From a virus, in IMG/VR virus record IMGVR_UViG_3300025828_000255, positions 1-20,532 of that record: a stretch of 20,532 nucleotides of DNA; one strand, 5' to 3'. The first letter of the stretch is position 1; each line of letters begins with the position of its first letter. Positions 945-9,089 of the stretch are shown here, one piece after another. Position numbers and translations under genes: made by a program. The notes below the pieces were generated by a model. That model made no database searches. It saw nothing but the letters and a program-made list of their open reading frames with translations, and had not been told where the DNA came from.

Positions 945-1028
945 TTCTCCACAGGTTTTCCACAAGTTATCCACAGAAATCCCAGAGTTATCCACAGGAA
1001 TCCTTGAGTTATCCACAAGTTATCCACA
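945..1028 (+). other. DnaA-box array, candidate replication origin
   Basis: Four perfect copies of the strong bacterial DnaA box TTATCCACA start at 967, 988, 1009 and 1020, all in the same direction. Two one-mismatch copies precede them, TTCTCCACA at 945 and TTTTCCACA at 956. The starts are 11, 11, 21, 21 and 11 bp apart, so every box falls near a multiple of one helical turn and would lie on the same face of the DNA. Two weaker words ending AGCCACA (1159-1167, 1169-1177) continue the theme. AT-rich DNA follows at 1178-1260, as expected for an unwinding element. Host DnaA could open this site and load or attract the phage primase-helicase. It might also act as a DnaA-titrating or transcription-control site. 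Confidence 0.65.
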
Positions 1029-4350: not shown

Positions 4351-4549
4351 ATGTAAAAGTTGCGATGTTATATTAAACGAATACGAACTAAAAAAGATTG
4401 ACCATTTAACAGGACTACATCTTGACCTATGTAACGTCTGTGCCGCCCACTCTAATGAAGCATTAATGGAAAGTAGCGACACGCTTAATTATCTTTACAC
4501 GGGTTTAGTTTCGGAGACTGAGGATATTGACTCGTTGAGGGTGGAGTAA
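4343..4549 (+). CDS. Small zinc-ribbon-like early protein
   Basis: 68 residues. The ATG at 4343 lies in an overlap with the previous stop and gives MSRCKSCDVILNEYELKK, a CxxC pair at residues 4 and 7, followed by LCNVCAAH with a second CxxC near residues 30 and 33. Four cysteines in two pairs suggest a small zinc ribbon. The C-terminus is acidic. Its last 55 bases overlap, on the other strand, the end of the endonuclease VII-like gene. It is the last gene of the early series. Target and role are unknown. Confidence 0.6.
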   Translation: MSRCKSCDVILNEYELKKIDHLTGLHLDLCNVCAAHSNEALMESSDTLNYLYTGLVSETEDIDSLRVE

Positions 4550-4977
4550 TCGCCTTTATCTTCAAGATAATAGACAGCCTTCTTAAGTAACTGGGGGCTG
4601 TCTTTAAAAAGACCTAGAGCAGTGTTACAATGATGACACAACAAACCTCTGACTTCTCCTGTGTCGTGGTTATGGTCAACAAACAGAGAGGTAGGAGAGG
4701 TAGCAGGAGATTCACAGATAAGGCAAGCGTTGTTCTGTTCTGCCATCATCTGATTGTAGTCATCTGTTGTTATGTTATACTTACGCTTGAGATCCCTCTC
4801 TCTTTTAATAAGAGGACAGGCTTTTGTATTTAACCCTTTAGCGTGACGTTCTCTTTGATAAGTGTTAGTGCAGGGTTTACATCTTGGCTTGGGAATTGAA
4901 GCCTTACGAGTAGGACAGTGATAGTGCGTAAACTCAGTAAGAGGTTTAGATATGTTACATTTAATACAGGTTTTCAT
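4495..4977 (-). CDS. Endonuclease VII-like HNH nuclease (recombination endonuclease VII family)
   Basis: 160 residues. The N-terminal third has two CxxC pairs (C4/C7, C33/C36), a zinc finger. The C-terminal part is the T4 gp49-type core: YNITTDDYNQMMAEQNNACL with C85/C88, then FVDHNHDTGEVRGLLCHHCN with the DHNHD active-site cluster (101-105) and C114/C117, then the helix LLKKAVYYLE. The family resolves Holliday junctions and branched DNA; many copies behave as freestanding mobile nucleases. It starts eight bases after GGAG. It lies opposite to the surrounding plus-strand genes, has its own promoter at 5138-5166 and overlaps the preceding gene tail to tail, which fits insertion as a unit. Confidence 0.9.
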   Translation of the reverse strand: MKTCIKCNISKPLTEFTHYHCPTRKASIPKPRCKPCTNTYQRERHAKGLNTKACPLIKRERDLKRKYNITTDDYNQMMAEQNNACLICESPATSPTSLFVDHNHDTGEVRGLLCHHCNTALGLFKDSPQLLKKAVYYLEDKGDYSTLNESISSVSETKPV

Positions 4978-5365: not shown

Positions 5366-5731
5366 ATGGCAGTAATAGAAGGTATATTAGCATTTGAAAA
5401 CCTGAACGAACATGAGATTTTTCAGGGTCAAAGTACCGGCAAGTATTCAGTTGTCATTAGCTTAGACGATCAAACCGCAGAGCAGTTAGCAGGTATGGGT
5501 GTCAAGCTACGTGAGTACGAGGGTACTAAACAGCGTAAGTTCAGCACCAAGTATGATGTGCCTGTCTTAGACGCTGATGGCAATCCCTTTGCAGGACGCA
5601 TTGGCCGTGGCTCCAAGGTACGTTTGTTGTGGGCAGAAGGTCAGCCCCACCCTGTACATGGAACGTCTACCTACCTGAATAAGGTCAAGGTTCTGGAGGT
5701 TGCAGAGCAGGAAGGAGGCGAGGACTTTTAA
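5366..5731 (+). CDS. Single-stranded DNA-binding protein (T7 gp2.5 / Enc34-like role)
   Basis: 121 residues beginning MAVIEGILAFENLNEHEIF, a beta-rich OB-fold-like chain with YSVVISLDD and KVRLLWAEGQ. It ends in an acidic tail with a terminal phenylalanine (EQEGGEDF), the arrangement by which T7 gp2.5 and bacterial SSB contact the replisome. It resembles phage ssDNA-binding proteins of the DUF2815/Enc34 type. It would coat unwound template and coordinate polymerase and primase-helicase. It is the first gene after the promoter at 5220-5248, starts after AGAGG, and its TAA overlaps the start of the primase-helicase gene by one base. Confidence 0.8.
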   Translation: MAVIEGILAFENLNEHEIFQGQSTGKYSVVISLDDQTAEQLAGMGVKLREYEGTKQRKFSTKYDVPVLDADGNPFAGRIGRGSKVRLLWAEGQPHPVHGTSTYLNKVKVLEVAEQEGGEDF

Positions 5732-7356
5732 TGGCAGTTGAATCTACCTTTGTCCGACATGAGCCATGCCCTGCGTGTGGCTCTAAGGATAACTTGGCTA
5801 GATACTCTGATGGGCATGCCGTCTGTTTCTCAGGCGGCTGTTCACATTACGAGAGAGGTGACGGTCAGGTTATAAGCATTCAACAGAAACCTAAGAGGTC
5901 GTTAGAGATGACAGGAGTAGTAGCGGCAATCCCTGATAGACGTATCAATGAAGCCACAGCAAAACGCTATGGTGTTACAGTTGAGTACGGCACTGATGGG
6001 CAGATTGTCAAGCATCACTACCCGTACCATGACAAGGATACAGGTGCGGTGATAGGTACTAAGGTACGAGCAGTAGAAACTAAAAACTTTTATGCAACAG
6101 GAGGCTTTGATAATGCGGGGTTGTTTGGTCAACAGGCGTTCAAGAGTGGCGGTAAATACATTACGATCACAGAGGGCGAGGCTGATGCACTGGCAGTCAA
6201 CGAGATGTTTGACGGGAAGTGGCCAGTCGTATCCATCAGATCAGGTGCGGCAGGAGCAAGCAAAGACATCAAAGCAAACCTTGAGTGGCTAGAAACTTTT
6301 GATAATGTGGTCATCTGTTTCGACAGTGACAAGGCAGGACAGGAGGCGGCACGTTCGGTGCTTGATCTGTTCACCCCCAACAAGGCAAAGAATCTTGAGC
6401 TATCCATGAAGGATGCAGGTGATATGCTCAAGGCACGTAAGGTGCAGGACTTTGTTAAGGAGTGGTGGAACGCTAAGTCATATCGCCCTGATGGTATCGT
6501 TGCGGGTAATGAGACATGGGACATGATCATCAAGCAGTCTGATGTCAAGTCCATTGACTACCCTTGGGCGTGTCTCAATGAGTACACACATGGATTCCGT
6601 AAGCAGGAGCTAGTGACTATTACTTCAGGTTCAGGCATGGGTAAATCACAGATTGTCAGGGAGCTTGAGCATTACCTGCTAGGAGCTACGGAAGATAACA
6701 TAGGTATCCTTGCCTTGGAGGAGGATATCCCCAAGACAGCATTAGGCATTATGTCTATTGAGGCTAACAAGCAGCTACACTTGGACAAGTCTGTCTCTCA
6801 GGAAGAGAAGAAGGGATACTGGGACAACACGTTAGGGTCAGGACGTATCTTTATGTTTGACCACTGGGGCAGTACCAATGAGGATAACTTGCTAGGACGC
6901 ATACGCTACATGGCTAAAGGACTAGACTGCAAGTGGATTATCCTTGACCATCTCAGCATCGTAGTGTCAGACCAAGAGACAGGTGACGAGCGTAAGGCTA
7001 TCGACAGCATCATGACCAATCTCCGTAAGCTAGTTCAGGAGACAGGCGTAGGGTTGTTCCTTGTGTCTCACCTACGTAGACCAAGCGGTGCTAAGGCGCA
7101 CGAGGATGGCGGTAAGATTTCTTTGGGAGAACTCAGAGGATCAGCGGCAATCGCGCAACTTAGCGACATAGTTCTGGGGTTAGAGCGAGATCAGCAACAC
7201 GCTGACCCTGAGATACGTAACACCACCTGTGTACGTGTGCTGAAGAATAGGTTTGTTGGACTCACTGGCCCTGCTTGTTACCTGTATTATGACAAGGAGT
7301 CTGGGCGTATGATTGAGACTAACTGTCCAGTACCTGACGATAAAGCGGAGTTCTAG
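5731..7356 (+). CDS. Fused DNA primase-helicase (T7 gp4-like)
   Basis: 541 residues, close to the T7 enzyme. An N-terminal zinc ribbon (C13, C16, C32, C37) reads the priming site. A TOPRIM primase domain has TEGEADAL (E148) and the metal-binding FDSDKAG (D198, D200). A linker near residues 240-275 leads to a RecA-like hexameric helicase with Walker A SGSGMGKS (299-306), a catalytic glutamate region ALEED (328-332), Walker B IILDH (403-407), the SHLRR motif (446-450) and LRGSAAIAQLSD (468-479). It ends in an acidic stretch and phenylalanine (DDKAEF), like T7 gp4, whose tail binds the polymerase. It unwinds the fork and makes primers. The start is fixed by a TAATG overlap with the SSB gene. Confidence 0.95.
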   Translation: MAVESTFVRHEPCPACGSKDNLARYSDGHAVCFSGGCSHYERGDGQVISIQQKPKRSLEMTGVVAAIPDRRINEATAKRYGVTVEYGTDGQIVKHHYPYHDKDTGAVIGTKVRAVETKNFYATGGFDNAGLFGQQAFKSGGKYITITEGEADALAVNEMFDGKWPVVSIRSGAAGASKDIKANLEWLETFDNVVICFDSDKAGQEAARSVLDLFTPNKAKNLELSMKDAGDMLKARKVQDFVKEWWNAKSYRPDGIVAGNETWDMIIKQSDVKSIDYPWACLNEYTHGFRKQELVTITSGSGMGKSQIVRELEHYLLGATEDNIGILALEEDIPKTALGIMSIEANKQLHLDKSVSQEEKKGYWDNTLGSGRIFMFDHWGSTNEDNLLGRIRYMAKGLDCKWIILDHLSIVVSDQETGDERKAIDSIMTNLRKLVQETGVGLFLVSHLRRPSGAKAHEDGGKISLGELRGSAAIAQLSDIVLGLERDQQHADPEIRNTTCVRVLKNRFVGLTGPACYLYYDKESGRMIETNCPVPDDKAEF

Positions 7357-7358
7357 TA

Positions 7359-9089
7359 GTGGATAAGATTGTATTCGACATTGAAGCTAATGGCTTGAAG
7401 CCCGACAGAGTGTGGGTAATCATTGCCTATCACATGGGGTTGGAGGAATACTTTGAGTTCTCTGGTTTTACTTTGTACGATTTCAATCAGTGGTTACTAG
7501 ATCAAGGAGAGTGCGAGATCATAGGTCACAACATAATTGACTATGACATACCTGTTCTTGAGAAGATACTAGGCACAGACTTCAGCAAATGTAAAGTCAC
7601 AGATACGCTAGTCATGTCACGGTTAGCTAACCCACAGCGTGAAGGCGGTCACTCGCTAGATAACTGGGGTACTGTATTAGGACAACCAAAAGGAGAACAT
7701 AATGATTGGGATAATTTTTCGCAGGATATGGTGGACTACTGTCGCCAAGATGTGCGAGTTAATAAACTGGTGTACCAGAAACTCCTCACTGAGCTTACTG
7801 GTTTTGGAAGCGAAAGCATCGAGCTTGAGCATAGAGTACAAGATATTATATGTGGACAGATTAAAACAGGATGGACGCTAGACCAAGAGAAAGCGTTCTT
7901 ATTATTAGCAGAACTAAAGGAGAAGAAGTATGAACTTGAAGATGAAGTGTTACAGACTTTCAAACCGTTACCAACATTTGTCAAAGAGATTACCCCCAAG
8001 ACTAAGAAAGATGGTACGTATTCGGTTGTTGGGCTTAAATTTCTAGGCGATCAATGGACTACCGCAGTCGCTCCCTTCAGCCGTATAGACTACCCTGTGT
8101 TTAACTTGGGTTCTCGACAGCAGATAGGACGATACCTACAATACTTTGGGTGGAAGCCCAAGCAGTTCACTGAGACAGGACAGCCTATCGTAGACGAGGC
8201 AGTGCTAAGTAAGGTGCAAGGTATACCGGAGGCATCCCTGATTGGCGAGTACCTGATGATACAGAAGCGTGTAGCACAGGTTCAGAGTTGGTTAGATGCA
8301 GTCGAGGACGATGGTAGAGTACATGGGTACGTCAATGCGTGTGGTGCTGTGACAGGCCGTATGACGCACTCTAGTCCCAACATGGGTCAAGTACCGGCAG
8401 TCTATTCACCCTATGGCAGAGAGTGTCGTGATGTGTGGACAGTACCGGAGGGATATAAACTTGTGGGCTGTGACGCTAGTGGTTTAGAGTTGCGTATGCT
8501 TGCCCATTACATGAATGACGAGGACTACACTAATGAAATTCTCAATGGAGATATACACACGGCAAACCAGTTGGCTTCGGGCGTTGACACTAGAGATCAA
8601 GCAAAGACTTTTATATACGCTTTCCTTTATGGAGCAGGAGACGCCAAGGTCGGAAGTATCGTTGGAGGAACTGCAAAGGACGGCAGAAGACTTAAGGAAA
8701 AGTTCCTCGCAAATACGCCATCTCTTAGAGACTTACGAGAGCGAGTTGGAGTGGCGGCTACAAGAGGCTATGTTCTTGGCTTGGATAGAAGACGGGTGTC
8801 AATACGATCCGAACACGCTGCATTGAACAGTCTATTGCAGTCAGCAGGAGCCGTAGTGATGAAGAAAGCCCTATGTTTGTTGCATGAATACGCTACACTC
8901 TGGGGCATAAAGTTTAACATTATAGGAAACATACATGATGAAATCCAGACAGAGGTCGAGCAAGAGAAATCAGAGGTTTTCGGACGGTTGGCAGTCAGTT
9001 GTATTGAAGCCGCAGGACTCCACTACAAACTCAACTGTCCACTTACAGGAGATTACAAAGTCGGAAACAGTTGGGCAGACACACACTGA
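7359..9089 (+). CDS. DNA polymerase, family A (T7 gp5-like), with proofreading domain
   Basis: 576 residues from a GTG start two bases after the previous stop (CGGAG upstream). The 3'-5' exonuclease has its acidic residues in place: FDIEANG (D7, E9), HNIIDYD (D61) and DYCRQD (D126, D131). The polymerase carries TGRMTHSSPNMGQVP, motif A DASGLELRMLAHY (D372), motif B RDQAKTFIYAFLYGAG (R412, K416, Y420, Y424) and motif C IHDEIQ (D527, E528). Y420 corresponds to T7 Y526 and E. coli Pol I F762; tyrosine here is typical of virulent T7-like phages. The C-terminus GNSWADTH matches the T7 ending, so the protein is complete. It is shorter than T7 gp5 (704 aa). It copies the genome with the primase-helicase and SSB. 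Confidence 0.95.
   Translation: MDKIVFDIEANGLKPDRVWVIIAYHMGLEEYFEFSGFTLYDFNQWLLDQGECEIIGHNIIDYDIPVLEKILGTDFSKCKVTDTLVMSRLANPQREGGHSLDNWGTVLGQPKGEHNDWDNFSQDMVDYCRQDVRVNKLVYQKLLTELTGFGSESIELEHRVQDIICGQIKTGWTLDQEKAFLLLAELKEKKYELEDEVLQTFKPLPTFVKEITPKTKKDGTYSVVGLKFLGDQWTTAVAPFSRIDYPVFNLGSRQQIGRYLQYFGWKPKQFTETGQPIVDEAVLSKVQGIPEASLIGEYLMIQKRVAQVQSWLDAVEDDGRVHGYVNACGAVTGRMTHSSPNMGQVPAVYSPYGRECRDVWTVPEGYKLVGCDASGLELRMLAHYMNDEDYTNEILNGDIHTANQLASGVDTRDQAKTFIYAFLYGAGDAKVGSIVGGTAKDGRRLKEKFLANTPSLRDLRERVGVAATRGYVLGLDRRRVSIRSEHAALNSLLQSAGAVVMKKALCLLHEYATLWGIKFNIIGNIHDEIQTEVEQEKSEVFGRLAVSCIEAAGLHYKLNCPLTGDYKVGNSWADTH

Follow-up and report, generated by a model that had tools for sequence, protein, structure and literature searches.

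What would binding sites for a host initiator do in a phage that carries T7-type replication genes of its own? T7-like phages are taught as independent of DnaA, and the part that host initiators play in phages with T7-type replication is largely unexplored. We addressed this question at a locus in a 20,532-base virus record of an uncultured marine phage (the window, meaning the whole stretch of DNA analyzed), where an original prediction had placed six DnaA boxes in a single direction. All six were confirmed on the + strand exactly as claimed. Boxes 1 (945–953, TTCTCCACA) and 2 (956–964, TTTTCCACA) each carry one mismatch, and boxes 3 to 6 (967–975, 988–996, 1009–1017 and 1020–1028) are exact copies of TTATCCACA, with steps of 11, 11, 21, 21 and 11 bp between the box starts. 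This arrangement was far above chance: the window contained 15 matches with at most one mismatch compared to 5.3 ± 2.6 in dinucleotide shuffles (largest value 13), and 300 first-order Markov simulations gave a maximum of 2 same-strand boxes per 84 bp compared to the six in the window. The locus thus has several closely spaced TTATNCACA sites in excess of chance, as is expected of a DnaA-box cluster. Furthermore, among one-mismatch variants of the box, 28 of 50 were changed at position 5, the N of TTATNCACA, and tolerance at position 5 is typical of E. coli DnaA boxes. Box sequence, spacing and variant spectrum therefore all support the identification as DnaA boxes and make host DnaA the predicted binder, and we consider it very probable that the array serves as a set of host DnaA binding sites. 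An Rfam search of the array module gave no credible match.

The original prediction was correct about the boxes but overlooked a sigma-54 promoter-like site that adjoins them (1039–1055, + strand, TTGGCACG-GGTA-TTGCA). This site is a complete fit to the -24/-12 consensus (a GG-N10-GC core within TGGCAYR-N4-TTGCW), points towards the early and replication genes and is in helical register with the boxes, the array ending about 12 bp before the -24 element. Since a one-mismatch match turned up in 38 of 100 shuffles, a single match in the window is unremarkable by itself, and we based the sigma-54 assignment on conservation and position instead. The site was kept in relatives, often in two or three tandem copies, and across 16 records the sigma-54 pattern gave 38 matches, some of them a coding match in the portal gene, compared to 0 for a reversed control pattern. 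We rejected a candidate late sigma-54 promoter located about 2.9 kb from the array, because the match falls within portal coding sequence and is explained by conserved codons. From its sequence, the 1039–1055 site would be bound by sigma-54 RNA polymerase. The AAA+ activator domain on which such a polymerase might draw (PF00158) was absent from 12 phage records in which we looked for a phage-encoded sigma-54 activator, while controls were positive; a host activator is possible.

Both elements lie between conserved flanks, on the left at 867–902 (CCTAATTTCACCCTTTTTTGTATACCGGAGGGAAC in the window phage) and on the right at 1074–1100 (GAGTGTGAGTATGCCAGAGGATACCTA). A conserved C-rich tract (927–940, + strand) forms the border of this slot on the side of the putative small terminase gene, terS, and is kept even in distant relatives, which retained the tract and DnaA boxes without sigma-54 sites. 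To determine what the slot holds, we collected loci by terS and not by any motif. Among 98 non-redundant slots, 21 contained DnaA boxes only, 33 sigma-54 sites only, 22 both and 22 other repeats. Motifs were derived from seeds in these same 98 slots in order to avoid circularity: the seed TTGGCA alone brought out TTGC at the sigma-54 distance in 91–94% of 160 sites, and TTGGCA occurred 162 times in slots compared to 19 times in control DNA from the same loci. DnaA boxes occurred 174 times in the slots and 0 times in a similar length of control DNA, with arrays of up to 10 boxes. Some sigma-54-only slots carried sites on both strands, and tandem runs reached six sites. In the slots of relatives, sigma-54 RNA polymerase sites seem to take the place of DnaA or to operate alongside it. 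In the L226-type set of 62 loci, every locus had DnaA or sigma-54 elements, and just 7 had the two together. One 36.6-kb contig had a slot at each end, one version with DnaA boxes and the other lacking them, a difference suggestive of polymorphism in the population. Other sequences were also repeated in the slot, including a GTGAC-N16-GTCAC dyad upstream of terS (L346, L351, L345, L358, L373 and other relatives) and tandem CACCATTGGG repeats that fill the slot in L380, L381 and L382, with L381 also having ACACCACACGC repeats.

Conservation of the array, on which the original prediction had depended, was borne out in dozens of relatives, and these kept a helical grid of 10.75 bp. A cluster of at least 3 boxes was present at the same place in 23 relatives identified by their primase. 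Using the flanking sigma-54 motif, we pulled out 61 distinct loci with at least 2 boxes upstream of that motif, in 34 architectures. Box number, order and orientation varied across relatives, with box positions relative to the promoter near -19, -30, -41, -51, -62, -72, -83 and -94. The commonest, shared by 42 of the 61 relatives, was a box start 19 bp before the sigma-54 element, as for box 6 of the window. Adjacent same-strand steps in these sigma-54-selected loci had a phase coherence of 0.87 near 10.85 bp. We also analyzed 22 non-redundant arrays taken from sets picked only by the neighboring terS-like gene, in which the best period over all pairwise distances was 10.75 bp. Because tandem duplication would yield steps of 11 and 22 bp, these were removed; the phase survived, and 0 of 2000 random sets reached such coherence. 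Divergence amounted to 1.0% of sites within boxes and 6.2% between boxes, in groups that were defined by having boxes. As a separate observation, a 21-bp iteron-like unit close to GTTATCCACAGGWATCCYTRA was common to the window array and to T7-like phages of Klebsiella and Enterobacter (L204, L205, L207). A blastn match to the array region in an intergenic stretch of Microvirus mar31 (L206, 3195–3282) contained no pair of TTATNCACA boxes.

The genes around the slot place these elements between two operons. To the left, the putative terS (110–511, - strand), assigned by position only as it had no family match, is the first gene of a leftward operon. A sigma-70-like promoter reads towards it (653–681, - strand; TTGACT-17-TATAAT, 11/12, with TG before the second hexamer), and a similar motif is also present in relatives. 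Downstream of this promoter lie two identical perfect palindromes, CTTAAGTATACTTAAG, at 531–546 and 601–616, which are likely to be the operators through which a regulator controls the leftward operon. To the right, the first gene past the module (1652–2104, + strand) matched PHROG 3754, a family of unknown function, and is preceded by a candidate structured leader RNA of about 300–350 nt (1293–1640, + strand), with a fold z-score of -3.1 and compensatory changes in 26 of 69 consensus pairs among 10 related sequences; it had no credible match in Rfam. Further rightward genes encode a gp2.5-like ssDNA-binding protein (5366–5731, + strand), a T7-type primase-helicase (5731–7356, + strand), a family A DNA polymerase (7359–9089, + strand) and a T7-type endonuclease I. 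An Endonuclease VII-type gene (4495–4977, - strand) lies on the strand opposite to its neighbors and is possibly a mobile insertion. In a near-complete relative of 35,327 bases, the terL, portal and capsid genes, which are of non-T7 type, are on the opposite strand, from which we infer a genome of two operons that point away from each other at the array and meet again, at about 13.3 kb in the window.

As the original prediction had stated, no phage RNA polymerase is seen: neither the window nor near-complete relatives contained the T7-type enzyme (PF00940), whereas three T7-like control phages were positive. The description of the phage as T7-like held for its replication genes but not for the portal and capsid, which in a relative matched the SU10/P22-type portal and PF19821 capsid families, nor with respect to the missing polymerase. 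Of the features that define the Autographiviridae, the phage has T7-type replication proteins, and its near-complete relatives lack the single-subunit RNA polymerase gene. The closest named phages are marine podoviruses, HTVC115P-type by primase (about 50% identity to HTVC115P) and HMO-2011-type by portal (about 22%), but the gene orders of HTVC115P and CRP-125 differ from that of the window phage. We found no isolate of its own family, and a host search gave neither a relative in genome_contigs nor a bacterial or archaeal genome with the DnaA-plus-sigma-54 pattern.

We then asked if the module had properties of an origin or a genome end. The cumulative GC-skew had its minimum at the module, at position 1034 in the window and likewise in two relatives (1021 in G007, with the array at 992, and 24817 in G004, with the array at 24726). 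A skew minimum thus lies near the array, but it coincides with the divergent orientation of the genes, and as any divergent gene pair would give such a minimum it does not by itself speak for an origin. No run of at least 3 DnaA-trios was present on either strand within positions 801–1180 of the window. AT-rich stretches flanked all slot types and were not specific to DnaA slots, and no DnaA-specific unwinding element was seen among the slot types. Contig ends of the window family were scattered and showed no fixed terminus. A fixed cos site at the array was rejected, as contig ends gave it no support. Terminase sites in the form of slot-flanking direct repeats were likewise rejected, since such repeats were barely above control.

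Isolated phages provided a clearer view of genome ends. Blastn searches, first using the window region and later the array of phage ZK1, identified similar arrays in phages of Klebsiella, Enterobacter, Shigella and Proteus, and the array-bearing records that we examined were mostly classed as Autographiviridae. In five isolates with identical genome ends, every TTATNCACA site near the genome start fell inside the direct terminal repeat (DTR): phiEap-1 (DTR of 195 bp, first 600 bp scanned), ZK1 (292 bp), vB_ShiP-A7 (177 bp), Kp7 (238 bp) and H01 (218 bp), with the first 1200 bp scanned. The 177-bp DTR of vB_ShiP-A7 was mapped experimentally by direct end sequencing in a paper that does not mention DnaA (PMC8427288). 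Isolated T7-like phages that have their own RNA polymerase carry DnaA arrays, and these are confined to DTRs. Some uncultured T7-like contigs that encode an RNA polymerase combined a DnaA array with a sigma-54 site as well (L308, 9694–9754, and L306, 540–600); in L308 the combination lies between terL and early genes. In the window phage, we infer that the slot is probably at the genome terminus. Blastn searches with a made-up DnaA-box array or a made-up sigma-54 array had no match in named phages. Literature searches, with most subscription journals outside their coverage, found no precedent for DnaA boxes in Autographiviridae or terminal repeats, nor for sigma-54 promoters in lytic phages. 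Lytic phages may exploit sigma-54, a use that the literature does not seem to report.

These data bear directly on the explanation first offered for the array, in which DnaA would open the DNA here, as at a simple oriC-type primary origin, because the phage has no RNA polymerase. The array, the skew minimum and the missing polymerase agree with it. However, the same arrays occur in T7-like phages equipped with an RNA polymerase, close relatives replace the array, and there is no DnaA-trio; the need for a DnaA-driven start is thus not supported, and a simple DnaA-dependent primary origin is very unlikely. The presence of arrays in phages with an RNA polymerase shifts the question to the role of DnaA and sigma-54 polymerase at phage genome ends. 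The reading that we favor, tentatively and as plausible rather than probable, is that the array is a docking element for host factors at a probable terminus and assists in starting or licensing phage DNA synthesis. DnaA molecules would bind side by side on one face of the helix and form an oligomer, within a hypervariable slot shared with the sigma-54 promoter between the divergent operons and probably at the genome terminus. DNA synthesis would be started or licensed in this region of the terminus or concatemer junction, with locally opened DNA offering a possible entry point for the T7-type primase-helicase that the phage encodes. DnaA and sigma-54 polymerase have in common that they first bind DNA in double-stranded form and can then open it, T7-type primase-helicases need no loader to enter opened DNA, and in T7 replication promoters flank the terminal repeats. 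A broader possibility, on which we are more reserved, is that a swappable terminal docking slot, holding DnaA arrays, tandem sigma-54 sites or other host operators, is a new kind of cis-element through which T7-type replisomes exploit host DNA-opening proteins to start or process DNA.

The proteins bound at the slot might instead have no role in initiation. Tightly bound at the concatemer junction, DnaA, closed-complex sigma-54 polymerase or others could form roadblocks or marks that serve in terminase cutting, duplication of the terminal repeat or end protection. The confinement of boxes to the DTR in the five T7-like isolates, the putative terS adjoining the slot, the exchangeable identity of the bound protein and the occurrence of sigma-54 sites in both orientations would all fit such a packaging element; yet contig ends in the window family show no terminus and roadblocks have no obvious need of 10.75-bp phasing or a sigma-54 register, and we regard this explanation as rather unlikely. 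Phasing also counts against a decoy that soaks up host DnaA, or sigma-54 polymerase, as phage copies build up and thereby stops host initiation or rewires transcription. Sites that by sequence are of the high-affinity type, clustered and in both orientations, up to 10 boxes per array and swappable host targets are what titration would predict, but a decoy requires neither a helical grid nor a fixed slot and register, which leaves it doubtful. The conserved register, with the array ending just before the -24 element, and the divergent promoters nearby would be accounted for if array-bound DnaA activated or repressed the sigma-54 promoter and the divergent operons. This form of transcription control is improbable, given that DnaA boxes occur without sigma-54 sites in 21 of 98 slots and the reverse in 33 of 98, and DnaA is not known to act as a sigma-54 activator. 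Whichever explanation holds, arrays confined to DTRs in isolates, together with their alternation with sigma-54 sites in a marine family that is uncultured but abundant, point to a shared, as yet undescribed step.

DnaA-box clusters as such are already known; what does not seem to have been reported is that they occur within terminal repeats of phages and that sigma-54 sites can replace them in one slot. Like the window array, oriC, P1 oriR and RK2 oriV have clustered, phased consensus DnaA boxes, many of them in one direction. In contrast to these oriC-type origins, the window phage has no DnaA-trio, encodes its own T7-type helicase-primase, and belongs to a group in which the array is exchanged for sigma-54 or other sites. 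The E. coli titration locus datA is also a cluster of high-affinity DnaA boxes outside an origin, but the window array differs from it in its fixed phage slot, helical grid and adjoining sigma-54 promoter. The terminal-repeat region of T7 contains the replication promoters phiOL and phiOR, which are thought to serve secondary initiation and concatemer processing. Like these end elements of T7, the arrays of phiEap-1, ZK1, Kp7, H01 and vB_ShiP-A7 are cis-acting sites carried inside the DTR, here for DnaA; in contrast to phiOL and phiOR, host factors would take the place of the phage RNA polymerase, at a DTR that in the window phage is putative.
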